Below are positions 2,801 to 25,334 of a stretch of 25,786 nt of DNA, in pieces. The stretch is from Saccoglossus kowalevskii. Taxonomy: Eukaryota; Hemichordata; Enteropneusta; Harrimaniidae. The first letter of the stretch is position 1. Each line of letters opens with the position of its first letter. Location of the stretch: contig NW_003105106.1 of assembly GCF_000003605.2 (NCBI RefSeq), positions 475,837-501,622 of the forward strand, read 5' to 3'. The notes beneath the pieces were generated by a model. That model made no database searches. It was not told the origin of the DNA and worked only from the letters and a program-made list of their open reading frames with translations. The translations under genes and the position numbers were made by a program.

Positions 2801-3295
2801 CTCAGCTCTATGTCTAGTACTCTTAGCCTAACATTTTTACCCTTTTCAACAATGTTATACTCCTCATTTATATCATTATCAGATTTGGTAGTTTCAGTGG
2901 TATCGGTTTTATCAAATTCAGTAGCAATCTCATTAATGTTATTGTTTACCGAGGTTTTAAAACTGTTAAAATAGGATTGATGCCAGTAGGACATGTACAT
3001 CGTGCAATGTAAGGTTGATGATACCGCACATCAACAACTACTACATTTAATGTAAGGTTGAGGCCAGTACAATACATTTTGGTATGTAATATTGATGTAT
3101 GTAATATTGATTGATTGTCAGAAGGACCATACTTATTACGGTGTAATTTCACCATCACTTGCTATTGAGCAGGACTTTGTATTGATGTATAACAGTACTA
3201 GTGTTATTATAATATATGTAAATGTGTTCTGAAAAAAAAATACCACACGTACATGTTCCGGTACAAATACATATTAACAAACACTTCTAGCAAAC

Positions 3296-3423
3296 CTTAA
3301 AGGATTTGCCTTGACTATCAATAGTTAGATCAAGTGGCCACCAGTAATCAACTTTATCCTCAGTTTCATTATGTAACACTTGCATACTGTTATCCCCATC
3401 GAGGTAAGATGTGCGCAGTAACA
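3296..3423 (-). CDS. Gene A exon 10: late part of MAM 2, last recognisable exon
   Basis: Phase 1 in, phase 0 out, 128 nt. It reads SYLDGDNSMQVLHNETEDK, then YWWPLDLTIDS and GKSFK before GTTTGC. This matches the MAM segment just before the F-Q-V boundary. No exon with the expected IDDI.F..C ending is visible further on, so the gene's 3' part is missing or unrecognisable. Confidence 0.65.
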
Positions 3424-3535
3424 CTAACAATGAGACACACGATACCAAAAGGTAACTTAGGAAACAAATCACCAGGAATACACAGTTAAGATTTGATTAA
3501 TATTATCTGTGATAAATATGTATGTTATTGTATAC

Positions 3536-3646
3536 CATGATTTTGTAGAACGAATCTTACTCTACATCCAATGCTTGTTCCTTTGATTGATGGACTGGCA
3601 AGTCGTGCGTATTCGCCGTATTGCTCTCTGGTGTATAAGTACTGGC
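3536..3646 (-). CDS. Gene A exon 9: middle of MAM 2
   Basis: Phase 1-1, 111 nt. It reads GQYLYTREQYGEYARLASPS, then CRVRFVLQNHG. The ASPS...C...F pattern is the MAM core strand. The donor is GTATAC. An intron splits MAM 2 here where MAM 1 (exon 4) has none. Confidence 0.72.
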
Positions 3647-3809
3647 CTTAAAAATAAATTATGTGTCTTATTTTCAGTCAATCGTGTTACAATTTATGTC
3701 TTTCAATTTTGTCATTGAATCAATCAAAAAATTACATGCTTAATCAAGACTTGAACTAACTGATTATGTTGCAATTGTGTGAATAATATTAACATTATCA
3801 AATACGTAC

Positions 3810-3935
3810 CATCAACTGTTCTAAAGGTGTGGTCAAGCTCAGTTCCACGAGAGAATAACCATTTATATTCTTGGTCATATTCTTGTCCCTAATCACAAAG
3901 GTCTAGTTCAAAATCACATCTACCAACTAAAGCAC
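3810..3935 (-). CDS. Gene A exon 8: start of MAM 2, with a stop codon
   Basis: Phase 1-1, 126 nt, acceptor ATTACAG, donor GTACGT. It reads GRCDFELDLCD, a TAG at 3891-3889, then GQEYDQEYKWLFSRGTE and HTFRTVDG. The MAM consensus after CDFE..LC is G/D then W, so TAG most simply replaces TGG. The rest of the exon is intact and in frame, which suggests a recent nonsense change. Confidence 0.78.
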
Positions 3936-4316
3936 CTGTAATGCAACGTATATACAGAATTGAATGATGTTATTATTTTTTGTAAATAAAGAAATAAATA
4001 TGGTATGTGAAGGTTTATATGTGCATTTCTTGTACATGCACTTCTAATACGGTAAGGCTGTGATTTTCCGAATGACAAATTCCACTTACTCAGCTTAAGG
4101 TATGAAAATGTAAACAAGTTAACTTACGGTATCAAACCATGTGACGGCGATACCTATCATATTTGAGTTCAATGTGTTCATACATATATGTCGCTCTTCA
4201 AAAGCATACAAAAATGTTCGCCATACAATATATTACCACATATATATGTAGTATTGGATTGATATAATACATAATTATATGCAACCACTTAGTAACCCAT
4301 ATACGTGAGTGATTAC

Positions 4317-4439
4317 CGCAATATTGTTCATCTGAAGAGTCCATACAGTCATCTGCAAAATTACACACTTTCTTTTTGTCAATACAGTGCCCATCAGAAC
4401 AGCGGAATTCGTCATCTGTGCACGTCTTGTTACTTACAA
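4317..4439 (-). CDS. Gene A exon 7: LDL-receptor class A module
   Basis: Phase 1-1, 123 nt, with a strong acceptor (CTTTTTTCAG). All six LDLa cysteines are present: CTDDEFRC, GHC, KKKVC, NFADDC and the final YC. The calcium-binding DSSDE is intact, so this module could fold normally. The donor is GTAATC, a weak match. Confidence 0.85.
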
Positions 4440-4498
4440 CTGAAAAAAGATATTTGATATGATATATTTTAAAAGTATTATGGAATGAATGTAATTAC

Positions 4499-4561
4499 CA
4501 TCAGTAAGATAATTTAATGGAACATGCTCAATAATTTGACATGGTAATATTTCTTTACACA
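4499..4561 (-). CDS. Gene A exon 6: 21-residue linker exon
   Basis: A 63-nt open stretch with acceptor CTATTTAG, donor GTAATT and symmetric phase 1-1 codes VCKEILPCQIIEHV, then PLNYLTD. It holds two cysteines and matches no module I recognise. Because it is phase 1-1 it may be skipped or included without changing frame. Splice sites and phase support it; there is no homology support. Confidence 0.5.
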
Positions 4562-4744
4562 CTAAATAGTACAAAGTGAGTTATATGTAATCTCTCGCAC
4601 AAAAACAAAACAATAATTATTACAGCTACATGAAAATGGTAAAACGTATATATATTGTAATGCCACGTTATAGCAGCAAACTGCATGTCAAACGTACAAC
4701 AACTAGATATATTGTAGTAATAAAATGTATGCTATATGACATAC

Positions 4745-4829
4745 CTGGCGGTGCACAATCTATAAATACCACATCATCTATACATGTATCAAATACCGCG
4801 TCTTTACCACGAGTAGCTTGTATGACCAC
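4745..4829 (-). CDS. Gene A exon 5: end of MAM 1
   Basis: Phase 0 in, phase 1 out, 85 nt. It reads VVIQATRGKDAVFD, then CIDDVVFIDCAPP, the standard MAM terminus with the last two cysteines (family consensus: V.F.A.RG....IAIDDI.F..C). The acceptor is TTACATAG and the donor GTATGT. In gene B the same MAM end shares one exon with the following LDLa module. Confidence 0.8.
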
Positions 4830-4914
4830 CTATGTAAGAAAACCGTAGCAATAATTGCGACAAGTATTTAAATATGTGTGCAATGTAACATAGTATTACT
4901 TCAAATTACAGTAC

Positions 4915-5166
4915 CTGAAAGCGTCCTCCGATTCCTATGAAGACCAATGCGCGTTGCCATTCATTCGCAACTTCGTTCATTAATACAAATTTCAGGTTCA
5001 TCTCACTTTCATAAATTGTGAATACTTTCAGTAAACCAGAAGTGCTACTACCCACATGGTACCAGGATTCCAGATGGCAATTGGGACCAGACTGTCCAGA
5101 CTGGTGGTGTTATTTGTGCTTTTGTGTTTCTTTCTCCGGGGGAGTTGTCAGCGAATATGTAAAATC
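4915..5166 (-). CDS. Gene A exon 4: middle of MAM 1, frameshifted
   Basis: The exon opens in phase 1 (GFYIFADNSPGERNTKAQ) and closes in phase 0 (LVFIGIGGRFQ before GTACTG). The MAM core CHLESWYHVGSSTSGLLKVF is readable only one frame over, so a one-base excess (or two-base loss) lies near 5090-5105. Length is 252 nt against 269 in the gene B counterpart (24339-24607). No splice pair inside the exon would restore the frame; the only GT...AG there is about ten bases apart. Confidence 0.75.
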
Positions 5167-5282
5167 CTAAGATAAAATAGATAGATAAGGTCCGTCAATA
5201 CTGATGTGAAAGACGTTAATGTTTACGGATTAATGTTCCCAATGTACCATTAGTTATAATACTGTTATGAATACTAATGTAC

Positions 5283-5447
5283 CATCGGAAGTAGTCGTTG
5301 TATGGCCAACACGTGGCCGAAAATCCTCAGCTGAACGACCTTGTTGTATTTCCCATGGAAATTGTGAAATGTCGTAAAATTCGCGTGACGAGGCAAATAC
5401 GCCATTCCATCCACAATCACCACTTTCAAAATCACAGATGTACTGCA
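5283..5447 (-). CDS. Gene A exon 3: first part of MAM 1
   Basis: Phase 1-1, 165 nt. It begins with the classic MAM opening (YICDFESGDCGW) and continues through FPWEIQQGRS to GHTTTTSDG. The donor is GTACAT, weak but usable. It aligns with gene B exon 19653-19787 at the CDFE...CGW motif, though the rest is strongly diverged. Confidence 0.82.
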
Positions 5448-5574
5448 CTGTAATAAATTGTAAAATTATGTTGTCAAATTAAAAGGAATGTAACAATTGT
5501 CGCGACATGCAATAAAGAATACTCTGTTTCGGTTGGAGATATATGTGATTAATGATCATTTCGGTAAATCTCAC

Positions 5575-5732
5575 TACAGCGAGCTCCTTCCTCTTCACCA
5601 TTCGAACAGTCATCACGGAAGTTGCAAACCAGTTCTGGAGCAATGCATTCGTTATCCACTGTACAGTAGAACTCGTTGTCATTGCACGAAGGGTGGAATG
5701 TCATTGGTGAACGAATTGTTGGCAAAGTTTTT
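5575..5732 (-). CDS. Gene A exon 2: LDL-receptor class A module
   Basis: The acceptor is a pyrimidine-rich tract ending CTGCAG, and the donor is A/GTGAGA. After a short linker (TLPTIRSPMTFHPS) come the six LDLa cysteines: CNDNEFYC, then ECIAPELVC, then NFRDDC, ending EEEGARC. The usual calcium-binding DxSDE is replaced by SNGEE, so calcium binding may be weak. Entry is phase 2, exit phase 1. Gene B has no module at this place that I can find. Confidence 0.75.
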
Positions 5733-5767
5733 CTGCAGAAAATGTAGAAAACAAATTAACAATTAAA

Positions 5768-5835
5768 AACAAACTCACACACTACACTATACTGCACCAC
5801 ACTACACTACACTATACTACGCTACGTCACACCAC
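5768..5835. repeat. Degenerate CACTA-type tandem repeat
   Basis: Repeated variants of CACTACA and CACTATA run through this stretch in intron 1 of gene A. It is a low-complexity tract with no sign of function. Confidence 0.7.
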
Positions 5836-5849
5836 GACGGCAAGCCACT

Positions 5850-6476
5850 GAAACTGTGCCGCACTGCATTGAATTTATTTCCTCCGTTTTTTCTGTTATT
5901 ATTATTTTGTTTTTATTGATTTTGTTATTCGCATACCAGCTTTTTTATTTCATATTTTATATTTAGTAATTTTCCTCTGTGTTATTTTGCGATATTTTTC
6001 CATTTCATTTTTATTTTCACTTTATATCTTTGTCGTTCATTGCTTTATTGTTAATTAATTTATTTTATTTTTATTCGGTGTTTTGCGGGTCATATTTTAT
6101 TATTTTGCTTTTTTTTTTTAGAAATTTAGAAATTTGGCCAAAAGAGGCCACGATTTTTTTTCATTGTTTTCTGTTTATTATTATTATGTATGATGGAATA
6201 TTTTTGCAACACTTGGCGCGCCGTAGCTCCCCACCCCCATTTCAAAACATTAACCCCTTAGAACATGCTCACTCATAATGCTAACCAGTCTGGCACTGTT
6301 GTTATAAACGTGCACTAGGATTACCGGAGCAGGGGAATCTCCAACTCGGTCAGGTGACTTTATTCTCACATGAAATTAATGTTCAATACATACACCAGTG
6401 ACCAAAGTGCACCCAACGGTAATTATAACTATCTTGTGCTCAGCGTGTGTTACATTTTGTAAAATCAACGACATTC
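5850..6476. other. T-rich intron sequence, nothing recognised
   Basis: Intron 1 of gene A. The plus strand is T-rich (5880-6180), followed by a mixed tract. No module exon, repeat family or RNA gene was seen. Confidence 0.5.
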
Positions 6477-6969
6477 TAAGCTACGGTATCTATTGTGAAA
6501 AACTGTGAAAGATTTTAATGTATGTAGTGCGAATGCGAAATTAAATTAAAAGTTATTTTGTTGAATACAAGTCATTTTTGAATGAAACATTAGAAAATAA
6601 AGAGGCCACCATTCGGACTGGAGTATACAATATATTCTTTGCTGTGTATTTTAGTGTGAAAAGAACAGCCAGTCATTATTTCACTCGCCAATGAATAAAG
6701 TGTTTGAACAAACAGATTAGGGTTGCATAAACAGGTCTGTAGATTGATTCATGCTTAACATTTATTAAGCCTATGAGTGATAGTTTCTGGACACTACTAT
6801 GTCTGTTTTGATCATGTACAAGTAATATGGTATACTCATTGTTGTCACATGACAATATATTGGTATGTGAGTTTTAATAAGTGTTTCTGCACCCTGGCAC
6901 TGAGATGGTGATTATAAAAATTGTCAATTATATCAAAGTTAAAAATAAGGGTTCCATAATTTCTTGGTA

Positions 6970-8315
6970 ATATATAGCAAATATTCATGCAAAATAACAA
7001 TAACAATAATAAAAAAATCTCTGTTTTATCCTGTGCAAAAATGCGAATATATATATATATATATGTTCCTGCCACGTGTTTCCTGCATTGCAGATAGCGA
7101 GCGGATAGAAATAGACTGATTTTATTCGGGTTGTTTGAACAAATTTGACGTTTTCATTGATATTTATATGTGTAAATTTGTATTTGAATACATCATTTTG
7201 TCGTTATCTGTTAATTTATACTACTATAGAATCAAAGATTCATTCAAACGAACATTCCATTTTTAAAGTGCATTCCAGTATCCAGCAATGTGTGTTGACT
7301 GCAGAACAAATCTATAAGTTTCCATATCAGAGTTAATTATTGAAAAGAACGATACTGTGTCTTGGAAATGTAATAAATTAAGCAATGTGGGATACGGTAT
7401 TTCTGTGTCCGTATCGGAAGCAATTTTGATTGATGACAGCAATGTTATTTTAGATGTGAATTCAGTTTATACAAATTTGCGGATTATGGAAACCTCTTAC
7501 CATTGAATTATCGAGCTATCAAACCTCTAGAATATAGAGCCGGTATCGTCTCAGACACTCCCGTCATCAAGAGCGAAGCAGTTTGAGGCAGACACAGTGG
7601 AAGACCATAGTCACGCGTAAATTACCATAAGTTCGTTTTAGAAATGTACACACTTGGTAAACGCACTCTCCGTATACCTTAGGTCAACACCCGTTCGTCG
7701 ATTCCAACCACTTGGTTATATTTTCTGGGCATTTTATAACTTTAAAATTGTTCTTTTATCAACACACTTTAAAAAAATAATCGCAAACACATTTAAGTGT
7801 CAAAAAGGTGAAAGAAGTGAATTAGAACTGTCCACTCTTTTTACATGCACGGTGGAAATATAAACGTCGCAGTTGGTTATTCGCCGTTCGTGAAATACCC
7901 TAACCAGCAATATTTGGAAACAAGTGCGCATGGACGTACTATATATGGATATCAGATGAAAACAGTACGTTTATATGTATTTTTTAACTTATCAATGAAG
8001 ATTGTAACTTATCAAGCTACTGTATTAGTATTTGGTCGACATGTCTACGCTACGATCATAAATCAAGAAACGTGTTTTGAATTACTGGGTTCACGCATTA
8101 TAACTTAGTTTCGAATATTGACACCACGGCTTCATTGAATTGTGTCTTCTTCAAGACCGAGGAATAGAGAATAGAAGAGTGTCGAGGAAACATTTACTTG
8201 AGATCTGACTACCAATTATCAATTGCGACTGGTCTTTTCAGTCGATTAAGTTTAAGTTAAATTTAAAAGCCGATCAATTTTAATTATACATCGGGTTCTT
8301 CACAAACCCGAATGT
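6970..8315. other. Extra DNA in the left arm, possible insertion
   Basis: This stretch of intron 1 has no match in the right arm, whereas flanking blocks do. An (AT)n run lies at 7047-7064. Imperfect inverted ends can be read at ATTCGGGTTGTTTGAACA (7124 on) and CACAAACCCGAAT (8301-8313), hinting at a DNA transposon of about 1.2 kb. ORFs inside (69 and 87 codons) resemble nothing known, and a target duplication is not clear. Confidence 0.35.
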
Positions 8316-8571
8316 GGTGGTCCTGAGTTTGTGATTCGACAACGTCATATTCTTAAAAGAGCATAATATTGGATGCAATACAAAACAAAACAAAACCGGG
8401 GGAAGAAGAAGTCAATTCAAAATGTGAAAAACATCGTACCACATGGCGAAATCTAATCTAAAATAATAACAACTGTTATCTAAGGTTAAAACTTCAACTG
8501 AAAAATCCAAATACGAAAAAATGATTGTGTACATCGTCGGTAGCCAATATGCACTTGTAAAAAGCAATCAC

Positions 8572-8630
8572 GTATCTGTGTGCAAAGAGCCAGACATAAA
8601 CATGATTGCAAGAAAATATGCATACACCAT
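8572..8630 (-). CDS. Gene A exon 1: signal peptide
   Basis: The ATG at 8630-8628 opens a hydrophobic leader, MVYAYFLAIMFMSGSLHTD. It aligns with exon 1 of gene B ([18 protein letters not shown]), which fixes the start. In gene B the donor directly follows CACACAG. Here that GT is AT, and the only nearby GT (8571-8570, GTGATT) lies four bases on, ending the exon in phase 2. That is the phase required by the acceptor at 5732. Confidence 0.7.
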
Positions 8631-8688
8631 GTCGAAGTAGTCGCTGAATTACAGTCACAGTTTTCTCTGCATGCGATCGTTGTGTTTC

Positions 8689-8694
8689 TTTATA
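8689..8694 (-). promoter_or_regulatory. TATA-like box of gene A
   Basis: TATAAA on the minus strand, about 60 bases before the ATG. The tract between it and the ATG contains CACAACGATCGCATGC, identical in the gene B copy, so the core promoter and short leader were duplicated together. Confidence 0.5.
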
Positions 8695-8798
8695 TGTACA
8701 TCTCCGATGTGTTGTTCTCTTGTCATCTAGTGAGGCCTCGCTTTTACATCAGTTTGACTGGAAAAATAAAATTTCAAATGAAATAAACGATACGCTAA

Positions 8799-9050
8799 AT
8801 GTCAGTTGAATGCCGGTATGAATCTTCACTCGACTTTTTAATAACGCAGTATATGTATGTACACACAGTTATTGTAAATGTAAATACTAATAGATTAGTT
8901 TATTTTTCACGTCGTGTACAGAAACAATTTCATTATTGTCAATTTCATATCCTATGGGATGAAACCTTTTTGTTATTTTTGTGTTTATTAATCTTATTCC
9001 TCTGCCATTTGTTATTTGATGTTTATCGTTTATACAAACTGGCCATTTAA
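8799..9050 (+). CDS. Small ORF shared by both arms, left copy (83 codons)
   Basis: The ORF diverges from gene A and points into the loop. It begins MSVECRYESSLDFLI and continues YMYVHT, RRVQKQFHYCQFHILWDE and a hydrophobic end (TFLLFLCLLILFLCHLLF). The right arm keeps a homologous 84-codon ORF with the same start. The main internal gap between them is six bases and keeps frame. It could be a small membrane protein from a bidirectional promoter, or an accident of DNA homology, since many differences change residues. Confidence 0.25.
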   Translation: MSVECRYESSLDFLITQYMYVHTVIVNVNTNRLVYFSRRVQKQFHYCQFHILWDETFLLFLCLLILFLCHLLFDVYRLYKLAI

Positions 9051-9124
9051 TAATGTAACTTGATGACTACCATTAAAGTAATGATTCATCGCTTATTAAT
9101 CACCGCAGACTATAACTATAACTA

Positions 9125-9256
9125 ATGGCGGGATACGATTACTTTTTAACCTCCCAGGGTCTACACGGGCGGCAATACTTTGAAGTGAGAGGTGTCTCGC
9201 ACACAGCAACAAAGACGTATTATCAACATCACTACCAGCGCTACGTGTTAAAATGA
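9125..9256 (+). CDS. 43-codon ORF at the inner edge of the left arm
   Basis: The ORF starts MAGYDYFLTSQGLHGRQYF and ends YQRYVLK, with a splice-donor-like GTATGT shortly after its stop (about 9280). Its first 18 bases resemble ATGGATGGATACGAATAC at 14591 (minus strand), just inside the right arm. Weak evidence for a start codon shared by transcripts running into the loop. Confidence 0.18.
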   Translation: MAGYDYFLTSQGLHGRQYFEVRGVSHTATKTYYQHHYQRYVLK

Positions 9257-9620
9257 TGTTGTTTTACCTAAAAGAAGAAGGTATGTTGAATGTAGGAATC
9301 TTGTCACGATTTTCCCGTTTGATATTGAGTGAGTACTATGGTTGCTTTAGACGTACTTCTTCTTAGACATATCTACAATGTAGCTTACCACTACATTACA
9401 GGATACATTAATGAAACTTGATATCTTCTATACGAAGTTTTATTGTAACCAATTTATTTGATAGATTGCGTGTTCAGAATTGATTTACTCTTGTACTTCG
9501 TCACATTTTTATCATTTAGCCTTGCTGCTAACTTTTATATAAGTTTCTGGCATTATATATAACGTATAAACAGTAATTAAAGAAATGTGATGAAAATTGT
9601 TTTCTCAACTGTTAATGCAG

Positions 9621-9740
9621 TTTCTCGTGAGGTTAAATCAAATATTTGTGAAATGTTTGCATGGGAATACCCAGATCTAATTGATACCACTCCTCCGCAA
9701 CAAAATATCACATTATTTTGCCGACCCATCTTAACTGCAG
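9621..9740 (+). CDS. Candidate phase 1-1 exon, unrecognised
   Basis: An open 120-nt stretch is framed by a good acceptor (pyrimidine tract, then AATGCAG) and a donor (GCAG/GTAGTA). Read in phase 1 it gives SREVKSNICEMFAWEYPDL, then DTTPPQQNITLFCRPILTA. It has two cysteines and an N-glycosylation motif (NIT). Symmetric phase 1-1 exons are typical of extracellular module genes. I found no neighbouring exon on this strand and know no matching domain. Confidence 0.3.
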
Positions 9741-11149
9741 GTAGTAAAGTTGTTTTTAACAACGTTTTCTTAGTACATGGGAAGGACCAGCAATGAATCT
9801 TTTAGGAAGGAAATACTGGTTAGGAAAGCCAATGTATGGTTGTTGTATTAATATAGGAGAGGAGATTAATGATTTGCGGTTGGCTATATGGTAGCATTCT
9901 TGTATGTAGAATTACCAAAAATATCAAAAAGTCTCAGTTCTCCAACAAAACATCTACAGTAATACGACTTACTATAAACATAATGTAATTAGCAGGTACA
10001 ACAACATATGTCTCATGGAGGGAGAATATACTTTAACTAGCACTAAGATCTTCCAATACAAATGTTGTTTTGAAATTATTCATGATTTCTATATCCGAAT
10101 TGTCGCATTTTCCGTCTCTCTTTATACTTAACATTAACATATTCAGACGCGATGTAATTCTATTTGCGTACCATAACTAACATCAGGCATGAATAGATCA
10201 GAAATATAACAATTCAAATGAACACAAGTTAACATGCAACAATGGAAGAAGTCAGCTGCATATTTTAAAGATAGAGTGAGTGCGGGTGGGTGGGTAAATA
10301 CGAGGACAGCTAGAATAACTATTTAAGACAGCTGGCTATTATTTCCAGTTGAACAATATGCGCATAAACGATCAATGTTTATTGTATGTGCTGTGGTGCA
10401 GGATGTATTTTTTTTGGAAACCCTAACATCACGTCATAATTAGTTTTCAGGAGGTCCATGTATCACTCACTGGTTTGACTCTGTTTGCTTCTTTATTTTT
10501 TTTTCCTGAATTGTAAAAATTGTGATATTGCCCGAATGATCATGTGTCATTTACGTTATCACATCGAACATACATCCACCATGCACAATTACTACCATAC
10601 ATCACTCACACCCGGTCCCCCACAAAATAACAACACTTATATTTGAAATATGCAATATTTTATTTTATGTAAATATAAAAGGTTTCACGAAATGAAATGA
10701 ATTGAGGAAATCTCAAACGCAAGTTATTTGACCACTCGCCAGATAAAAATGTCGTGCCGTGGAAGTGACTGAAATTACTTTCTCACGAAAGTACCACACC
10801 TTCTATTCACAAGTCATTCAGCCTTTTTTACCCAGAGTAGAGCGTTTTCGGCAAGCATCGGCGTAGACGTGCTTATAGCGTAAAACGCGCCACAGCGATC
10901 CCGGCTGCCACGCGGCTATACATGTTTGCTACGTATAAAGAATACCTTAAATAAAAAAAACAGAGTATCTTACTTATTATCCATTTTGGCAAGTTATCTG
11001 TCTATTTCGAATGCCTAAAGTTCCTCAAAATCTTTGAAAGCAACACGAAAGCAACAGCGGCCGGGCAGCACCACTGCGACGAACGACAATTTGTTATGCA
11101 GAGTAGTTTCAGTGACCTCATCTATGTGATATATCATGTAATATCTACT
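9741..11149. other. Loop sequence, nothing recognised
   Basis: No gene, RNA or clear repeat was recognised. The tract at 10840-10920 and 11040-11090 is richer in G and C than its surroundings but shows no ORF of note. Confidence 0.4.
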
Positions 11150-11311
11150 TGAATATACTTAAGCAATAACCCCCGCCGAAGGCGGGTATATAACGAGATA
11201 TTGCACGATTCACATATATGCACGAGCCGCAGCCGAGTGCACATATGGAGTGAATTGTGCATTATCAAGTGGTATACCAACTTAGGAGGGGGGTTATATA
11301 AGTATATTGAC
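11150..11311. mobile_element. Foldback MITE-like palindrome
   Basis: About 160 bases form one long imperfect inverted repeat. The outer ends are GAATATACTTAAGCAATAAC and, on the other strand, CAATATACTTATATAACCCC. The inner arms pair GATATTGCACGATTCACATA with GATAATGCACAATTCACTCC, meeting at a small GC-rich centre (GAGCCGCAGCCGAG). A short nested hairpin (CCCGCC GAA GGCGGG) sits in the left arm. Such palindromes are typical of non-autonomous DNA transposons; it has no coding capacity. Confidence 0.72.
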
Positions 11312-11650
11312 AATTCGATAAAACTAGTAAAACAAAAATTTACTTTCATCTACTAAAAGATCATGATTATGGCCCTTGAACATGAATATTATAAGAATAT
11401 ATAAGAATAGTATGTAGTTGTACGCTGAATGCATACACAAATTACATGCGCAACATAGTTCAAATTGAATACAAACTAATTTGTATTCCTCATGAAAAAG
11501 AAACGTATCCACAGTGAATAGAGCAGCGAAAACACACAAATTAGCATAACAAAAGATGACCTTTCTGACCTTTTACTGACTGCGTCAACGCGATTTGAAA
11601 TACAGGGTCGTGTATAGTTTGGATCATTAAAACAACGGATTTTCCACGTT
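11312..11650. other. Loop sequence, nothing recognised
   Basis: AT-rich sequence with short chance ORFs only. Confidence 0.4.
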
Positions 11651-11651
11651 T

Positions 11652-12067
11652 TCATTCCGGTTTTTGTACAATTTGGATTGTAATTTGCCCATTGACAGTA
11701 CAGTTGTGAAATAAACCGGTTTTGTGACTCATCATACTACTTGTAACTGTGGATATTTGACGTTCAGCGGTACTTGGTTCGACCACAATTTGAGACGCGG
11801 TGGGACGCGGTGTATCATGTACGGCGACCGGCACAGCGACCTCAGTTCCAACATCTGACCTGGATACCTCTGGTATAACCAAAGTTTTATGACAGTATGA
11901 CTGACAAGTTTTGTCGTTGTTCTGGGGAAAGTTTGATGGTGTAAGATCGGATTCTCGCATCGTTTTTGTGATACGTACATGATTATGCCTTGTCTCAACT
12001 CCGGCCGAAAGAAAGACTTTGCACGCCGTCGCTCTATTAAATGCAGTGGCTGGTGTACACTCGGCAC
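11652..12067 (-). other. Coding-like stretch, unrecognised
   Basis: Two minus-strand frames stay open across this stretch. The 102-codon frame (11960-11652) ends HNCTVNGQITIQIVQKPE and is rich in Thr, Ser and Val; its upstream continuation reads VFLSAGVETRHNHV. Base composition is less AT-rich than the flanks, as in exons. It may be the last exon of a lost gene or a fragment of a transposon protein. No known domain was identified. Confidence 0.25.
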
Positions 12068-12420
12068 AAATCTGCAGCTTTCTAAATTACCTTCATCATC
12101 TCATGTAATTTATTTACCCATAGTGAAGAATTACAATACCATATGTATCGTCGTCGAATTCTGCGTTGTCCCATGTTTCTTTGAAACATATGGCAATTAC
12201 CCGGTGCAATTTCACTGCAATTTTGTCATCTAGAATTCGAACGCCACTACAGGACACCGGTTGTTATTGGTGGCATACATTTTTGCCTGTGACTCATTTT
12301 TTGTCCTTCAATCCGTCAATCTTATCTAGTACTTAAAGATGTTTTCTTTGTTGGAGGTTCGCAATTCATCTCAAATTCACAACACGGAGAACACAGTGTT
12401 CTGGCGTTCGTGTAGGCACC

Positions 12421-12744
12421 TCACGGTGTTGAGGAACGGTGGTTTAGGTTTGTGTGGCGAACGACAATCACCCAACGACCGACGCTCACAACTTGGATCC
12501 CACCATTAACAAAAAGCAATATTATGGTTGTATAACTTTTCAGATGTTTTAATTCAGTACTTTTTTCAATATTCTTCCAAAATTCAACCACTATACTTCC
12601 ATAAAAATCAAATAATACCGGTATTTTGTATTTCCGTATTAAACCTGTAGTCAATTCATGTTCCAGGGCCACTTGGTTTAGCCGTGCATTATCAGCCAAT
12701 ATACCATGGATTGCATATGCAAATTTTGTGTTTGGAACAATCAA
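12421..12744 (-). CDS. 107-codon ORF, unrecognised
   Basis: The ORF begins MIVPNTKFAYAIHGILADNA and includes KIPVLFDFYGSIVVEFWKNI and TTIILLFVNGG. It has a protein-like mix of residues but no family I recognise, and no splice sites or neighbours to support it. It could be a chance ORF or a transposon relic. Confidence 0.2.
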   Translation of the reverse strand: MIVPNTKFAYAIHGILADNARLNQVALEHELTTGLIRKYKIPVLFDFYGSIVVEFWKNIEKSTELKHLKSYTTIILLFVNGGIQVVSVGRWVIVVRHTNLNHRSSTP

Positions 12745-12769
12745 ATCAATGGATTAACACCATCAATAT

Positions 12770-13404
12770 ACTGGTATAATATACTATGTAATATCCAATT
12801 TTATTCAATGTCATGTGAATGGGACTGAACCAATCACAGCATGCTTAACAACAGTGAGATGTTATAATATCGATTTGTCACAATACAGAAAATATTCTCT
12901 ACTCACTACTGAACAGTTTATAATACTGTTGCTATGATCAATGGGTTTGAACGCAACACACTCCTGGCCAAAGTTTACATCAAAAATGTTTTCTGCCATT
13001 GACATGTCCAATGAAAAAAATGGATTCTACTGGATTAGAAATGAGATTTCTAGACCGCATTCTTTCATTTGTAAATAGAATAGCTGAAGTTTAGGATTTA
13101 GGCGTTCCCATTATACGCAACAAACTAGAGAGTTCTGCTTCAGTAATAACATTTCTAGTCGTTGGGCTGAACGTCACTATTTAATATTTGCATCTATTGA
13201 ATAATGTGCTTCGCCAGTCGTCAACCAACAAACCAGCTTCTGCTCTGGTCAGCATATACCTTGGCCTTCTTCAGGTTTGGTCTCACAGGTGAGTTTAAGG
13301 TCCACTGTATACATTTTAAAGGCGAGCTTTCCAAGTTATGGGTTCCTACCTAGCACGTCAGAGACTCACAATTGAAATTCAATGTCTACTTGCAACATCT
13401 GGTC
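12770..13404. other. Loop sequence, nothing recognised
   Basis: No ORF, RNA gene or clear repeat seen. Confidence 0.4.
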
Positions 13405-13720
13405 AATCCAATATTTCTCAGTATTCCAGCTACAGTTTCCGGAGTGTAGCATAGGCATGTAGGTATGTCAGGTATGTCAGTATGTAGAATTACCTAGGGT
13501 ACTTTCAGGTTGAACATGTTTGTCACAAGCATGGTGCTGTTGACGTGGTGTGTTACCTATACTTGTGACTGTATTTCCAATATTTGTCAGTATACCAGCT
13601 ACAGTTTCCGGAGTGTAGCATTGGCATGGCATAGGTATGTCATTTTGTAGAATTACCTAGGGTACTTTCATGTTGAACATGGTTGTCACAAGCATTGTGC
13701 AGTTGAAATGGAGTGGTATC
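13405..13720. repeat. Tandem duplication, period about 169 bases
   Basis: Two copies of a unit of about 150-169 bases lie side by side. CCAGCTACAGTTTCCGGAGT occurs at 13426 and 13595, and GTAGAATTACCTAGGGTACT follows in both, as does the GTTGAACATG...TTGTCACAAGCAT block. A short TATGTCAGG stutter sits in the first copy near 13460-13485. Confidence 0.85.
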
Positions 13721-14460
13721 TTATGCACATGCAATTGTGGATTAGATTAGTGATGAGTGGTTGTGAGTGTTTAACTGGTGACAATTTGCTGCAGCAGACA
13801 TGGACTGTAGATTGTTGCTGCTAGAGTTAGATGTTGGTTGCATTGTGTCAGTGGGTTTTATTTTTACTAGTGTCAGCTGCATGGCTGCTCATCCGTGCTT
13901 TCAAGTTGTAGTTTTACGACATGTTGTAATGTGAAATGAAATGTAGTGATCAAGCTAGACAGAAATCTTTTAGTGAGACACAGAGGCATGTAGAAAGCAA
14001 TATGTGAACATAATATTGATTATATTGGGCAAGGAAAAGTTAGTAACAAATTGTCCAATATTTTCTTTGTCTACACATGCTCACAACACGTATCTATCGA
14101 TCAGCTGTTCGATTTCATTGTCTCTGTCGTCTTCAAATAATATGCAAATTGTCACAATATAACTGAGCTATCGCGAATATTAGGCTTTTACAGTGTGTTT
14201 TTTCAAGCCATTTACTTTTCAGGCAATATTGTAGGTTGCTATTGATTACTTGGACCTAGAAAACGTATACCTTTAAATATTTAATACATTATCAAATAAT
14301 GAGAAAATGAATCGGCGACATTAGAACAAAAAATAAGCTTAAAAGCAACAACATTTACTTATACACAGTATGTTGCAATTAAAAGAAGACTGAAGAAAGA
14401 ATTGAAACTGACCACGAAGGTTCTGTCAATTATTTTCCAAATTTACTTTGAAAAACTTAC
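13721..14460. other. Loop sequence, nothing recognised
   Basis: No gene or RNA seen. The first part (to about 13960) is rich in G and T on the plus strand. Confidence 0.4.
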
Positions 14461-14591
14461 CTCATTTTCTGCATTGTTCGATTGACAAAAAATCATCTTG
14501 GTTGCCGTGTGTGAGATAACTCTGTGGGTCATCGCCGCTCATTTGAACCTCGGCGGCAGTTTCCTTCATTGACGTATTCGTATCCATCCAT
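14461..14591 (-). other. Candidate first exon of a transcript diverging from gene B
   Basis: A minus-strand stretch with exon-like composition ends at a strong donor (ATGAG/GTAAGT, junction 14461/14460). From the ATG at 14587 it reads MDTNTSMKETAAEVQMSGDD, PQSYLTHGNQDDFLS and IEQCRK, then TGA one base before the donor. Either the 41 residues are a complete small ORF, or this is a 5' untranslated exon. It lies just inside the right arm, upstream of gene B on the opposite strand. Confidence 0.28.
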
Positions 14592-14662
14592 TTGCATCTG
14601 CATATCAGTTTTGTTCTTTCAAGTTATAATATGTGGTGATTAATAAGCGATGAATCATTACT

Positions 14663-14917
14663 TTAATGGTAGTCATCAAGATAATTATTAAATGGCCAGT
14701 TTGTATCAACGAAACAACATAAAAATAAGTTTAAAAAACTGAGAAATAACAAACAGGTTTCACCCCATAGGATATAGAATTGGCAATAATGAAAGCGTTT
14801 CTGTATACGACATGAACAATAAAGTAATCTATTAGCATTTACATTAATTGTGTGTACATACATATAATACATTATTAAAAGATCGAGTGAAGATTCATAC
14901 CGGCATTCAACTGACAT
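14663..14917 (-). CDS. Small ORF shared by both arms, right copy (84 codons)
   Basis: Homologue of the ORF at 8799-9050: MSVECRYESSLDLLI, YMYVHT, RIQKRFHYCQFYILWGE, then a hydrophobic stretch (LLFLSFLNLFLCC). The carboxy end differs through an indel. It diverges from gene B. No family is recognised, and coding status is unproven. Confidence 0.25.
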   Translation of the reverse strand: MSVECRYESSLDLLIMYYMYVHTINVNANRLLYCSCRIQKRFHYCQFYILWGETCLLFLSFLNLFLCCFVDTNWPFNNYLDDYH

Positions 14918-15042
14918 TTAGCGTACCGTTTATTTCATTTAATTTATTTGAAATGATATTTGTCCAGGCGAACTGATGTTTCACTAGCACGGATCTCTCT
15001 CTATACGTCGATGTCGACGGAACTACACAACAGAGGAGTGCA

Positions 15043-15048
15043 TATATA
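15043..15048 (+). promoter_or_regulatory. TATA-like box of gene B
   Basis: TATATA about 60 bases before the ATG at 15107, at the same relative position as the box of gene A. A start near 15070-15080 would leave a 5' leader of about 30 bases. Confidence 0.5.
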
Positions 15049-15106
15049 GTGACACAACGATCGCATGCGGGGAAAACTGAGGCTGTAATTCAACGACTCC
15101 TTCGAC

Positions 15107-15161
15107 ATGGAGTATGCATATTTTCTTGTAATCCTATTTATATCTGGCTCCTTTCACACAG
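15107..15161 (+). CDS. Gene B exon 1: signal peptide
   Basis: The ATG at 15107 opens [18 protein letters not shown], a hydrophobic secretion leader, then a phase-1 donor (G/GTAAGT) with perfect consensus. The start is fixed by the matching exon of gene A and by the TATA-like box 60 bases upstream. Confidence 0.8.
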
Positions 15162-18100
15162 GTAAGTGATTTTTTACGAGTGTATATTGGCTACCAACTA
15201 TGTACAAATCATTTGTTGATATTTATTCTCATATAACAATTACTATTTTACAATTCACCAAGCGGTGGGATTTTTTTACTTTTGAAATGATTTCTTCTTC
15301 TCTCGGTGTTTGTTTTGTATTTCATCTGAGATAATGTTGTTTATATAACGTTGTCGTATCACAAACTAGCCAATTCAAGTCCAACTCAATAATCAACTCT
15401 AAGATGGAAACTTATAGAATTATTCTGCTGTCAACATTATCAACATACATTGCTTGGTATCGGAAGGTACTTTAAAAATAAAAAGTCTGTTTGAAATGAA
15501 ACTTCGATGCTAACACCAATAAAAACTCATATATAATTATGTTGTCATATGACGACAATGCACCTTGCATATTTTACTTACATGTTCGAAACAGCTCCCT
15601 GTTTTCAGAAACTGTCAATAACAGGCTTATCCAATTTTAAGCATGAATGATTTTGGCAATCTGCAGACATGTTTATGCAACCCAAAACTGTCCAAACACT
15701 TGATTCAGTGGGGAGTTTATGTTTCATTCAAAAACGACTTGTGTTAACCAAATATTTTTATAATTTCATCTCCCACATTTTAAAATCGTTCACAGTTTTT
15801 CTCAATAGATACATTTAAAGAAATGGAATATTAACTTCGCATAGGTGTGTTAGGATTTGCTGTCATCATAACGGTGATTGTGAAGGTATAGTTGTAGCTA
15901 TATATGGCAATTTGTGTAGCAATAATCAGACAGATTTATATGATGTTTTGGGAAATATAATATGATATTGGGGTGTAAATTTATAATAAAACAAACCAAA
16001 ATGCGAGTGTAATAAATAAATACGTATTTTTAATATTTCAAATCGTATACATGTTCCAATTAATATTGCAGTAATGTCGATAAAATAACTTTCATTGTCA
16101 ACAGCGATTTCTGATATCTGGACAACATTGAAATTCTATTTTTTGGGGATTATTGTAATATTTTCTTGTAGCTTATTGAAAAGAACAAAGTTTTTAGGGT
16201 CTATGGTGGAACCAGCGTCTAGCGATGCAGGTAGAACATAAGAGTCAACAGATTGGAGATAACAAAGACGTACATTATTGGAAGTACAATTATCGTGTTC
16301 GTAAGATAAATGGTGGGGCCGGCTAACTAGAGAAGCTTGGATACAAATTCTACAGCAAGAATATTTGTTTATTTTTCGATTGCAATCATTTAACGAACAC
16401 TGCGTATAGAATACACAGGTTTGAATAAAGCTGGATGGTCAACATATCAGTATAAAAATTAAATCACTTGTCTTTATTCTGTCATTCAGTATAGTATGTA
16501 CGTATACGACGCGTTTACCCAAACCTGGGTAAACGATACACAAAGTGTTTCATAATCAGACATTTGTTAAAATATTGATTTTATGTCCCATTTTCTTTAC
16601 TCACAATCTTAAATATTTACACCGTGTTAAATATTTTCCAGTCAGCAAAACAGGATGTCACTAGTACGAGACTATCCTGTTGGTTGCATACTAAGCTGGG
16701 AACGGAAAACCGTATATGAGTCAGTTGCATCTTCGTAAGCCAAGGTTTAGTAATTGGTCCGTCATTTGAGCATTATACCTTGACAGAATTCCCATTATAA
16801 ATCTGTATTCACTATCGACAACAGCGTGTGTCTGATGCATTTTTATGGATAATCCAACACGAGGTTTTGATGCGTTTTGATGCGTTTCTCAAAATAAACC
16901 AATTACAACAAACCCTCAATCTCTCCATTCTCGTGGTACACAAATACTTAGCGCCCCTTACATGTTGTACTTTAATAGTTAAAAAGAAACAAATAAACAC
17001 TTTTCCCCATGCAGCAAGGTAAAGAATCATGCACAATTCTGCATAGTTATCTACATAGTGTATTTTATTCACAAAACAACTGGAACTGAAAAACTAACTC
17101 TATATAGAGAACAAATTAACAGCCATATTAAAATAGACATTTGTTAATAAACTAATTACTCAACTATACAAACACACTAATCTCATATGTTATTACCCAA
17201 CAGATGAAATAAACAAATAAATAGCAATTGAAGATAAAAGTTATAGTTATATTATTAGAAATTGTTAACAACAAACCAGTTGTACTATTGTTAACGGGCG
17301 CAGGGTTGTTTGCTGTCAGGTGTGGGGTGGATGTGGTTCGTCGTTAAGGAAAATGTGTGACGCTATTTGGGTTGAATTTGGGGTATATTGCTTGGCTTTG
17401 AGGGTACCTTCTGGGAATAGCATAGGTGATATTTTATACATCAACGCAGAGTAGTGAGCCGTACTGAACTGACCTGTCGTCCACTCAGTCTTCAACTCAA
17501 CTGTGCTGTCACCAATCTCGAGGTCTCCGCTCTTACCGTCTACTCTAACGTTTCCAACTGTACTCAAACTGTCTACCACTAAAATACCTCGTAAAGGTGC
17601 ATTGTTGGATGCATCATATTACCTTGAGATCACTGGGCTCTTACGTATTCACGAGAAATGCAGTGCGATAACAGAGACTGAATTTAGTACAATTTGGGCA
17701 GCAATCACCTCTGTGACTGCTCTCATATAGCTAAAGAAATTACTTTCATATACTTAGAGTTGTATTTCAGACTGAGAGAGTTGATGTCTTATTGTCACTT
17801 GTTTATAGTAAGTTCTCACAAAACATGATCTTCATTCATTGACGTATGAAACTTAAACCGATATCAACGCTTTCAATGGATTTGTATCACTCATTTAGTC
17901 TGTCGAAGGGACTTCTCTGGACAGAGTGATAGCAGAAATAAGTGACCCTTTTTAGTTAGAAGAAATATAAATAAAGTAATGTCATGAATCATTTCAACTT
18001 CACTCATAGGAGCCATGAGTAGTGAAACAAAAATGAAGAGTAGAACTAAACTATGATCTAAATATGTATCAAGTTTATTACCTCCAAATCGAGAGGAAGT

Positions 18101-21100
18101 TGGTGGCAGCCGCCCTAACATTTTATCTTGAATCGGTCTTTATATCAAAGAGGAGTTTTCGTTATATAAAATGACATTGCAAACGAGATTTGTCCATGAC
18201 AGCGTGTATGCGGTTGCTTGTAGAATGTAGTAGTATTTGGAGTTTACCGCCGTTTTGCATTGTAAGTTATATTCATTGCAGTCTGAATACGGAATTGGAA
18301 GCACGACACAATAGTTGTTTTTGGTGACAAGTCTTAACCTCGTTCTTTACCGCAAGCAAAGAACTATTATCAAATATATAGTGTCTTTGAAAAAAACTAT
18401 TCATATTTATAAAATTAGTTTGTATTTCTATTATCGTACACGTATGATACATCCTATAAAACAGTGCAATAACTGTTTGTTTACTGTCTTTTTAATGCAT
18501 AATTACGAAATTGGTGGTGTGAAGCATTAGTTAGCATACATATTTTGAAGAATAGGAAGGGAGACAAATTTCATACTGAATGGATGGAAAAAACTATATG
18601 TAAGTTTTTCATGAAAGGAAATAGACAGGTCATTTCACTGTATGGTGACACTGATGTGGAAATTTTTGTTGAAGTAGGCTTTGGGAAATCTCTGATATAT
18701 TGACTCCCGTCTGCTGAAAATGTAGTAGTGTGGTAGGACTGAACTTTGTTTCGTGATATAATGAAGCCAGTTCGAGCTAATAATTATATCATAACTGATA
18801 GGATCTTTTAGAATAGGCTGATTAGTTTTTCGGTATGAGATAATTGAGAACTTAAATTCGGTACCAATACGGTAGTCCTCACAGTGCTAAAATCTAGCTC
18901 ATGATTTCAGTGTACGCCTATTGAAATCAAGCACAGTGGGCGATATATTTGGGTACTATGCCAAGATAAAGACATCACTGATATACCAATACACTGTACA
19001 ATTGAGATGTATACACGGTTTTACTATACAGTATACAAAATCACAACTCGATTTAATACAAATGAACTGATCAAGATAGTATTAGTTGAAACGACACAAG
19101 ACATGACTGAAGTCACATCAAGTGAGACAAAAACCCAGACCTGTGTGTAGGCTTGGGCATGGGTAGAGAGTTTATTCTCGCCCTGTTTAGAACTTTATGC
19201 AGTGTCTCTAGAGTTTATAACTTAAGATCTTTGTTCCGATTACCCTGCAATTCTCCCTCCGAACAGAGACTCCTTTATAAGTCAGGTCAAGTCTTAAAAC
19301 AATATAGTACTGGTATAGTGTTGACTTGCTTTTAAAGATTTGTTATATTGCCCTTACCAAATGAAATGATGCCGCCCACTAATCATTGAATACAACTACA
19401 GAAATGTATCATTGTGTAGTTTCTAATAATATGTTTTGACATCAAGTATTTTTACCTTCCCGCATAGGTTGTGAATATATTCATTCCACAATAGACCCCA
19501 CTGCTATTGAAGTCTATTGCACTGTTCACGATATTATTAACTAAGACAATAAGACTGTCAGATTGGTGCTGTGCTTCACTCAAAATACAATAAAAATTTC
19601 TAATATCAAAAATATATTAACTGCTATTACTACTATTATCTTGAATTCACAGCAAATACATGTGATTTTGAGAATAGCCAATGTGGGTGGTATGCAGATA
19701 TCATTGGCGATGGTTGTGAATGGGTAAGATCACAAGGTAACACTGAATTAGCTCCCGGATATGTCGGCGGATTCAACAACACTGATGGTAAGTAACAAAA
19801 TACAGACATCCATCTTGATTGTATACAGAAGTGTTTTGTGTTTGTGAAAAAAATTATATCTATGATTAAGAACTAAATGGGGAGCAGAGGTCTGGCTTTC
19901 GTCACTCCGTACATGAAATTTGAGATCTATGAATGAATTCTGACGATAAAATAACACCTTGTATATGCTGCGAAATTCCTTAAATATCAAGTATAAAACG
20001 GGCTTTGAAGTAGACAACAACGTCCTCTTTGGCTGGTGTCATTTCGCCTATTGGGGCGCTAGGTGATGACGTCACTAATGAACATGATGTCTCAGCCATA
20101 TCACTATTGTATACACGTACCCATTCTATTCTGAATAACCGTTCAAAATGCAAAAACATTTCGTTTTTAACTATCTATCAATATATGCACCCAGTCTTTC
20201 CTTTGATCTAGATTTGATTGGAATGGAATATTTTATTTTAAACATTATTCTGAGGTTACTTACTGCCCCAACATTTTTTTCAACGCAATTACGGTATGAT
20301 TGTCACATACTTCATAGACACTATATCATTACATTAATAGACACAGACTGTACATCCGAGGTCATCATTTTGTCAATGACATTCTTTCAATTTCATTATT
20401 GCTGGCTGTGTAGACCAGACTATCAATGTACACGTAACGGTTTTCACACATATCGGCTCTAATCTTTGGGTTTAGATGATAAATTGAGATGCATCGTGAC
20501 AACGGTGTCTTGCAGGACTGCGCATCACAAAAATCGTATGAGTTCACAGGCTATAGGCCTAGTAAATCGCTGTCATCATTTATGTACGATGCACTGTTTG
20601 GCGATACATGCTGCCGTGGGTGAAATTAGACGTCACATTTATTTTTGGCCATTAGATTCCCTGATTCATGACATCATGTGTACTGTAGACAATTTCTATG
20701 ACTCTGCATTACATGCGTGTAATCCACGTCACGATTATTGCAGTGTCAATTTATCTCCGCTTTTTCCACAAATAATTCATTTTTTCCCTGGGAAAACGTC
20801 GTCAATCTTATTTTATTAACCTCTACTTTGTCTTGACGGCGTAAATTACACCTCAATAAGCGTCTTTGGTTGATTTCTCGCACCCAAAATTGATTTTCGA
20901 TTCAGTCCTAATTACGCGATTCAACTAATATACTAAATACAGGCGACCACGTTCTTGACTGAAGTGGCATATCTTTTTAATCGCATTTTCAACTTAAATA
21001 TACCAACACTGTAAGATCTAGCAATTAACAAAAACATAACAAATCACTTAATCTCAATACAAATAAGGTATAAAATATATAGTAGTAAAGATATCTCTAA

Positions 21101-24100
21101 ATACTACAGTTCAGTATTTCTCTATTTCACCATAGATGGCGCTATCACCGAAGGTCACAACATAATCACAATAATTCAGCTAACACAAAAAACAAATCTT
21201 CAAACAATTCAAAAAGTAAATATTCCAAAACAATGAATGTGGATAAACTTCGATCTTATCACAAGTTTGTATAATAACTTATTAACAATGAGTAACACTT
21301 TGCCAAACAACGATGAAGAAATCGTACACATAATATTGTAATGCTTGTTTACACAAGCCAGTATATCACATCAAAAAAAGCTCTACGCTGGTTCATTCCT
21401 TAATAAAACTGTTCTCTGAAGACTCAAAGTACAACTAACTCAACTGTATATTACCTCTTTGGCCTATTTAGTTGGTACTCTGAGAGAGAATATCGACGAA
21501 ATTGCGTCTGTGGCGTTCATCGATACAAACAATGGAAACATAGCTTCTGTTGCATCATAAAACAAACAATATGTGGTAATACGCAATAAAAAACTCATGC
21601 AGGCAATAAATCTGCCCTTTAAATACAAAATATCTATTCCTACAGTATAATAATAATTTAACATAAATAATTTTATGAAATAAGAAGCTATTTAACAAAA
21701 CTACTCAATCTTTGTACCAATTACGACTAGAGGGCACTGTTAACACAAGATGCCGTGAAATCTCAGTGCACCTCGTCAGTTACACTCCCACCAAATCACT
21801 CATTAACAACAGTACATACAAGGAATATTGTCTATACTTGAGTGATTTCAAAATTAATAAAGAGTTCCTGAGAGGTAATATATATATATATATCGTAAAA
21901 GCGTGATCACAGTACAGGCTTCATTTTCTAGAAGAAGAATCAGTTTCTGGACAGGTCTTTGCAATACTTATAGCTTGCTCAATTTTCTGCCTTTCTTATC
22001 AATGTTCTTGGTACCAATCTTAACTTTAACTTTTCTGACTAAACCATCATCGCTTGCCGCAATCTCAATTACGATGTCCAATGGCCACTGCATTCGATGA
22101 AGTTGTTCATCTTTCAATAAGACTATGTCTCCCACCTTGATATTATGTCTTGGTGTGTTTCACTTCTGTCGTTTTGTCAGCGTATTCAGGTACTCTTCTC
22201 CAGCGTTTCCTGATGTAAAAGTCTTCTTTTACAAATTTACCTGGAGGGGGCAGTGCCAATGATGGTTTTATGGTGAGTAAATGGTTTGGATAAAGGTTCA
22301 GGACTTGTAAGAGCATTCAGTATGTCTACTGTGAGTGGACGGCTATTAAAAATGACCACAACTTCATACAAGAATGTACATAGTGATGCAGAATCAAGAT
22401 GACCGGAAGACTGTCGTAGAAGTGACGACAGTTCATTTTGGATTGTCCTGACTTGTCGCCCCACACACCACTTCTATGACTAGCATATGGAGGATTCATG
22501 ACGAATTTACACTGATGCTCTGCCAGAAATACTTGAATTCTTTCTGTGTCTAACTCCTGCAGAGCTTCTTGAAATTCATTCTTTGCTCCTACGAAGTTGC
22601 TACCCTGATCAGATCGAAGCTGTAGTACAGAACCTCTAATCGCAATAAAACATCAAAGACTGTTAATAATACAATCTGTTGACATATCATCAAGCATTTC
22701 AATGTGGACAGCCCTGGAACACATGCACGTGAACAAAAGTCCATACTTCTTGTGCTGTTGCCTTCTATCTTTAACTATAATACTACCAGAACAGTCCATA
22801 CCACAATATGAAAATGGAGCTGAAGACTCGGTCTTCTGGAAGATCTGCGATTTTTTGCTCTTCAACAGGACGACGAAGACAACGACATTTGACACACTTG
22901 TGAATGTGAATGTGACTGGCTACACTGGAGGGCGATGTTAACACAAGATATCGTGAAGTCTCAGCGCACCTCGTCAGCTACACTGCGCCTACGGCGGGTC
23001 CCGGGATCATTGCGTCTAGTTTGTGTTGACCAAAGTTTGACCACCAAGTCACGCACTGAACTCAAGTTATTTAATATTGGACACAGTTCAAGTTGCGTTC
23101 GCGAACGATTCGAAATGGTATTGATTTGAAGAGTCGTTCAGAATGTAATAATAGTTAATACTCGTTGTGTCCCCAAACTGTTTCATTAAAACCACTATTC
23201 GATCACGCCTGTGCTAGTGATCAGTGTTTGGGCAAGCGGTCGGTGTTTTCAAGCAAACAAGAGAAACAAACGATATAATTGTGGTAGTTTTTCGGTCGGA
23301 AAGTACCGTGCGGTCGGAAGTTAAGCGATAGGCAGTCGATTAAAAAGTGGGAAGTTGGGCGAAATGAGTACTGTAGTTCAAGTGATGTTAGCGTATTTCT
23401 AATTTATCTTTAACTCGGGCAATATTTATTTACCAACTGTGTACTATAGTTAGAACGCTATACGTGTCTTCATTTTCAGGTTAGTCCTTCGCCGATTTCT
23501 CGCAACCATCCTCTTGAAATTTGATTTGGGATTTCAAGAAAATTAACATGAATCGTTATGGCATTCATACGATATTGGCGTACTTAATGGTTTAAATTAT
23601 CAGCGTTCACTGATGACGTCACTGACTGGCCTTCTAGACGCGAAATAACGCCATGCAAATTGGGCGTTTATTATTTACTTCACAGCCCCTTTTATACTCG
23701 ATATTTAGGGCATTTCGCAGTACATACAACTATTTCACATGTACTAAGTGACAAAAGCCAGACCTCTGCCCCCTTTAAAACTTTAATAAGCTTGCAAATA
23801 TTCTGCCTCATATAAGTGATTGCAGTGCAAGTAGGAACAAATCTTTGGCCAATGTAATTATATCTATATAATTCTATATATAAAATTCTATACGCCGTAT
23901 AAACGATAAGCATGTAATTGCATTTTGTTTGAACACATGTGTTCTCATATCACAAAACAAGACAATGCTAACATGAACCATAAATTGAGTTTATATGTTC
24001 AAATAAAAGATACCACCGGACGCTTGGGATACGGAATAGAAGCGAAGCTAACAAAATAATCTCCATGTATTCGATTAAGTGTTTAGTCAACAATTTTATT

Positions 24101-25160: not shown

Positions 25161-25200
25161 GTGAGTAGTATATCAAAAAGTTGAATAGGTCCGTGTAACT

Positions 25201-25260
25201 AAAGATTTAGTTTGTGATATTGTGAATAATTGTGGTGATAACTCAGTTAGAATGAAGCTG
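25201..25260 (+). pseudogene. Decayed partial copy of the LDLa exon
   Basis: About 45 bases after the exon 4 donor, the sequence [18 protein letters not shown] can be read. It copies the exon's own end ([18 protein letters not shown]), and most DNA differences in the Cys-Asp-Asn stretch are silent. The SDE calcium motif and final cysteine are lost and there is no donor. It looks like a tandem duplication fossil, not a used exon. Confidence 0.72.
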
Positions 25261-25305
25261 ACAAAAAATTGTTTTTACGAGAGTCGGAGTTGAAAGAAAT
25301 AATTT

Positions 25306-25334
25306 TAATATAATATAATATAATATAATATAAT
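25306..25334. repeat. (TAATA)n microsatellite
   Basis: About six units of a five-base TAATA repeat, directly before the LINE. Confidence 0.85.

Follow-up and report, generated by a model that had tools for sequence, protein, structure and literature searches.

The window, a stretch of 25,786 nucleotides from the hemichordate Saccoglossus kowalevskii (C6:475837–501622, where C6 is contig NW_003105106.1, in a 572-Mb genome), carries two MAM/LDLa gene starts that lie head to head in the arms of a large imperfect palindrome. With a probability of about 0.8, this arrangement is explained by an ordinary, apparently old inverted head-to-head duplication of a gene whose adhesion-type product would be secreted or sit at the cell surface, one copy of which has decayed. 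The evidence comes from the inverted homology, the lesions in the left copy, the collinearity with a second scaffold, C4304, and the site patterns among the copies. The left gene is denoted A and the right gene B; A6 and B6 are the copies on C6, and A43, B43 and C43 those on C4304. Positions refer to the window unless prefixed with C6: or C4304:.

Inverted arms and the intervening loop

The sequence-only reading had described a large imperfect palindrome with a 5.5-kb loop, and this description was borne out. When the window was analyzed by repeat search and self-blastn, inverted pairs were obtained at 6486–6590/15812–15719, 6683–6885/15716–15512, 7227–7343/15512–15386, and 8326–9117/15367–14622, all in one register. 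The comparison of the window with its reverse complement, which that reading had proposed and which was done by blastn, gave as its best pair 8326–9117/15367–14622, with 76% identity over 813 columns (E 1.6e-172); the identity of the blastn arm pieces was 72–80%. A control with the reversed window yielded 1 match of 27 bp. The left arm (6486–9117, minus strand) spans 2632 bp and the right arm (14622–15812, plus strand) 1191 bp, the left being longer because the unmatched stretches 6886–7226 and 7344–8325 sit inside it. Both arms contain the upstream block, a TATA-like box, the leader, and exon 1, followed by part of intron 1 in A and by the intron 1 start in B. Between them lies a loop of 5504 bp (9118–14621), in which 9225–9390 and pieces of 10141–14088 are collinear with C4304 and not inverted. 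The window contains no Ns and is bordered by N runs on both sides; therefore, both arms lie in one gap-free contig.

The start codons are located at 8630 (minus strand) for A and at 15107 (plus strand) for B, with 6477 bp between them. The motif said to be shared by the arms was also found: each arm contains one exact copy of the 16-mer CACAACGATCGCATGC, and the window has no other; the copies lie at 8684–8669 on the minus strand and at 15053–15068 on the plus strand, in each case between the TATA-like box and the ATG. Moreover, the homology reaches into the gene bodies. An inverted copy of the later exons of B (C6:516–519 kb) is present at 3200–5871 with 80–81% identity, beyond the span covered by the sequence-only reading, and C4304:576–590 kb likewise matches C6, A43 tracking B6 out to C6:527.6 kb. 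The duplication was therefore much larger than the palindrome noticed at first. Inverted homologous arms with outward-pointing 5' ends and homology extending into the genes are what an inverted head-to-head gene duplication comprises.

State of the right and left copies

Gene B looks intact in the exons examined and is presumably functional. The coding part of its exon 1 (15107–15161, plus strand, as are all B exons) encodes an 18-residue hydrophobic leader, a putative signal peptide as judged by eye from its hydrophobicity, and is followed by the donor GTAAGT at 15162 in phase 1. Exon 2 (19653–19787) begins the first MAM domain according to tblastn and domain analysis, exon 3 (24339–24607) continues it, and exon 4 (24953–25160) contains its end and an LDLa domain. 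The two gaps in exon 3 relative to C4304 are 3 and 6 bp. Exons 1–4 and the eight later exons examined at C6:516–519 kb are all open, and exons 2–4 are in frame. Both domains exceeded the Pfam cut-offs in the window exons, namely, 68 bits for MAM (cut-off 26.4) and 29.3 bits for LDLa (cut-off 24.1), as they did in the eight later exons, which encode LDLa-MAM-LDLa-MAM and scored 104.6 bits for MAM and 52.9 bits for LDLa. B thus qualifies as a gene for a MAM/LDLa multidomain protein.

In this window, copy A has in all likelihood become a pseudogene: its first donor is gone, its reading frame is shifted, a stop codon interrupts it, and acceptors have been lost. The coding part of its exon 1 (MVYAYFLAIMFMSGSLHT, 8576–8630, minus strand) is followed by AT (8575–8574) at the donor position, which reads GT in the other four copies. 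Its 3' exons (3296–5734, minus strand, coordinates counted by eye from the alignment) retain the order LDLa-MAM-LDLa-MAM in decayed form; compared with its relatives, an acceptor is changed near 5745, a 2-bp deletion at 5100/5099 shifts the frame with respect to A43 and B43, TAG stands in place of TGG at 3891–3889, and an acceptor is deleted at 3436/3435. The ratio of nonsynonymous to synonymous divergence (dN/dS) was 0.77 for A6–A43 versus 0.35 for B6–B43. Accordingly, of the two head-to-head MAM/LDLa genes originally proposed, the head-to-head starts were confirmed, and only B looks like an intact gene. The later exons of A lie 2.8 kb from its exon 1. The distance from arm to later exons is 0.6 kb in A; for B it is 24.6 kb in C6, including 12.0 kb of Ns, and approximately 12 kb in C4304. 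Because of those Ns, the middle missing from A is given as 12–24 kb.

A truncated product of A, in which signal peptide, LDLa, and partial MAM would be joined by splicing from a cryptic donor to a novel acceptor, was considered and is unlikely. Exon 1 and the first later exons of A6 can be joined in frame if a donor 4 bp downstream is paired with this acceptor, giving 166 codons before a stop; that two changes preserve the frame over this length speaks for such a product, and would be expected about 1 time in 3 by chance. However, the donor (AC/GTGATT) is weak by the splice-site consensus, the frameshift and stop lie downstream, and the higher dN/dS of the A copies also argues against it.

Several neighboring features were recorded. 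A stretch in a B intron (20922–22981, with domains at 21968–22652 on the minus strand) is unmatched in syntenic C4304 and contains DUF5641 and, below the cut-off, a weak match to rve; we take it to be a BEL/Pao-like retroelement remnant. A second small inverted repeat (19880–20047/23640–23773, 80–89%) also lies within the introns of gene B. To the left of the A 3' block, reverse transcriptase fragments were found at 1399–2583 on the minus strand (RVT_1; one match exceeds the Pfam cut-off and two fall short of it), presumably a LINE-like remnant. The Rfam scan of the window returned 0 families, and its comparison with a phage collection gave no match, which is uninformative for animal DNA.

Arrangement on the second scaffold

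When exon 1 was used as a query, four places were found, two on C6 and two on C4304; C43 was absent from that list and was found in the scaffold comparison. C4304 runs antiparallel to C6. Pieces of 10141–25322, and C6 on to approximately C6:528 kb, match C4304 from 476907 down to at least 450003, and window positions 6143–9390 match C4304:538043–530803. The loop of C4304 is approximately 58 kb long, including 17.8 kb of Ns and the third promoter/exon-1 copy, C43 (ATG at C4304:484395), and C6 has about 750 bp (9391–10140) where C4304 has about 54 kb. No Ns interrupt the sequence in which C43 and B43 stand head to head. The C43 copy lies at local positions 3464–5689 of C4304:480001–490000, and its donor is intact. 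Downstream of C43, no MAM/LDLa exon was found in the sequenced DNA up to 512 kb, and tblastn found none in the sequenced part of C4304:476–542 kb. In A43, exon 1 is open, as are eight later exons past an N run (C4304:579.1–582.2 kb), with one doubtful acceptor (GGAAGA) in the last exon.

These positions bear on two functions suggested for the palindrome. The first is that the genes form a functional divergent pair whose common bidirectional promoter or enhancer lies in the loop, selection having preserved the palindrome. The five copies are indeed alike in promoter-proximal sequence, above all at 14632–14710 (plus strand, approximately 400–475 bp upstream of the B ATG) and in its A counterpart at 9028–9107 (minus strand). 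This was the least variable stretch in the four-copy alignment, the best windows having 76/80 (shuffle p 0.0004), 58/60 (p 0.002), and 39/40 (p 0.048) identical columns, which suggests a putative regulatory element. However, bidirectional promoters are defined by start sites within about 1 kb, and with ATGs as a stand-in the spacing is 6477 bp here and, on C4304, about 10.6 kb for B43–C43 and 59 kb for B43–A43. As the spacing is not preserved and A is broken, paired promoters are quite unlikely.

The second is an inversion switch, in which recombination between the arms would flip the loop among individuals. Inverted arms are present and make this mechanically possible. However, each loop end adjoins the same arm in C4304 as in C6 and shares one N-free stretch with it, so that neither of the two scaffolds compared shows a sign of inversion; the longest arm piece is only 76% identical and gapped, and in the inner as well as the outer arm parts the A copies group together, as do the B copies. 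Inversion of the loop is accordingly very improbable.

The evidence on whether C6 and C4304 represent two haplotypes or two loci points both ways. In favor of alleles, the B sides are collinear in 21 blocks of at least 150 bp (22463 ungapped columns, 8.5% divergence), and exon 1 was found at two places on each scaffold. Against alleles, C6:445837–478990 gave three matches only, of 76–154 bp, with the C4304 sequence sampled to the right of 582.4 kb; this sampling left out 590–600, 620–630, and 640–646 kb, 600–610 kb is two-thirds N, and two of the C6 stretches are all N. The dS of 0.163 for B6–B43 is also high for alleles. Large allelic divergence exists in animals, single-nucleotide polymorphism in the lancelet being 4.39% (PMC4284660); the 8.5% between C6 and C4304 is higher.

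Two differences within the loop were also noted. A tandem repeat (13407–13706, 163-bp unit, 1.8 copies) seems to be present in fewer copies in C4304, and a C6-only stretch (11152–12777) starts with a 179-bp imperfect self-complementary stretch (11142–11320), perhaps a foldback element.

Probable exchange between copies and proposed history

To describe the relationships among the four copies, sites were classified as AABB (both A copies alike, both B copies alike), ABAB (by scaffold), or ABBA (crossing, A6 with B43 and A43 with B6). In the promoter/exon-1 core, the ungapped distances were 0.085 for A6–A43, 0.054 for B6–B43, and 0.169–0.188 between A and B, and the 819 columns comprised 87 AABB, 1 ABAB, and 1 ABBA sites. 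Intron 1, which aligned more poorly, gave 67, 1, and 2 in 480 columns. A run of 7 core sites joining A43 and B6 (p 0.0016) was rejected, since it probably reflects the way in which an A6-specific replacement around 8732–8739 was aligned, as judged by eye. In palindromes maintained by conversion, the arms are near-identical and more alike within than between molecules, and the core counts of 87, 1, and 1 do not fit this. The distances also bear on whether one arm is a misplaced haplotype, that is, an assembly artefact. The presence of two related scaffolds in the assembly leaves room for unmerged haplotypes; however, the arms diverge by 17–19% versus 5–9% between matching C6 and C4304 copies, the window is a gap-free contig, and the divergent arrangement recurs for B43/C43 in N-free sequence. 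An artefact is scarcely probable at all.

In the 3' block, the 2597 columns contained 163 AABB, 1 ABAB, and 15 ABBA sites. Ten of the 15 ABBA sites form a single run at 5223–5130 (minus strand), where A6 equals B43 and A43 equals B6 at 10 successive informative sites; none of 20000 shuffles gave a run as long. Over the 106 columns of 5230–5125, differences numbered 2 for A43–B6 and 7 for A6–B43, compared with 16 for A6–A43 and 15 for B6–B43. This run is strong evidence that the copies have probably exchanged sequence. A second tract at 3842–3747 (minus strand), in which A6 equals B43 at 21 successive polymorphic sites (pairwise run test, 0/10000 shuffles), had 3 differences for A6–B43 and 17 for A6–A43 over the 121 columns of 3860–3740. 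It is only suggestive of exchange because the other five pairs also gave low values in this test (p 0.0003–0.0016), perhaps partly from an uneven spread of variable sites. Further out, in 6191 columns, A43 agreed with B6 at 249 sites and with B43 at 251, showing no surplus of agreement inside C4304 (runs test p 0.11). Conversion between the arms, which the palindrome had been thought to allow, was not seen in the arms themselves; short conversion-like tracts appear in the 3' exons outside them. Exchange seems to have been rare, short, and located in the 3' exon block, with gene conversion as its probable cause.

Taken together, these results are consistent with the following history. A multi-exon MAM/LDLa gene with a predicted signal peptide would have been duplicated in inverted, head-to-head orientation, and the palindrome would be the inner remnant of that duplication. 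Copy A of the window would then have lost its middle, corresponding to 12–24 kb of the content of B, and its outer part; we infer that the duplication preceded the deletion. A would further have lost its exon-1 donor and gained the frameshift, the stop, and the acceptor losses while B stayed intact, the promoters and introns 1 would have diverged independently, and short 3'-exon stretches would have been swapped by interlocus gene conversion. Some points weigh against this history. A6 might still yield a short product of 166 aa through its weak donor and new acceptor, and the 3' block of A may adjoin its arm through a separate rearrangement and not a deletion. In addition, N runs separate A43 exon 1 from its later exons (C4304:541960–576408) and A43 from B43 (C4304:512781–530599); that A43 is a single gene, and which way it faces relative to B43, therefore depends on the scaffolding.

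The literature searches listed no paper devoted to this locus. Vertebrate sex-chromosome palindromes also have large, gene-bearing inverted arms around a spacer. Those arms are kept near-identical by arm-to-arm conversion, unlike the 72–80% identical pieces here. The Caenorhabditis elegans genes hsp16-1/hsp16-48 are likewise inverted head-to-head duplicates, for which gene conversion was proposed, and surviving conversion tracts in Caenorhabditis are said to cluster at 50–200 nt, similar to the tract lengths here (PMC3966223). The hsp16 modules measure 1.9 kb and lie 416 bp apart; the present gene is much longer, kilobases of loop separate its two copies, and one of these has decayed. The amphioxus VCBP clusters (PMC2632668) resemble this locus as small clusters whose haplotypes have copy-number variation, pseudogenes, and inverted repeats; they differ in protein family, and C6 and C4304 are only candidate alleles.

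It is possible, if doubtful, that the inverted copies form a reservoir from which small MAM/LDLa exon variants pass between the two genes and between haplotypes, with the promoters and first exons staying distinct. If so, haplotypes would differ in the number of intact copies and in the exon variants of a polymorphic surface protein. The duplication-and-decay explanation preferred here also carries a caution, as a head-to-head pair in raw sequence need not mean two working genes; the left start lacks its splice donor. The locus also serves as a clean test case for the fate of inverted duplicates: its arms evolve independently, and the exchange detected involves nothing but short exon tracts beyond the palindrome first noticed.

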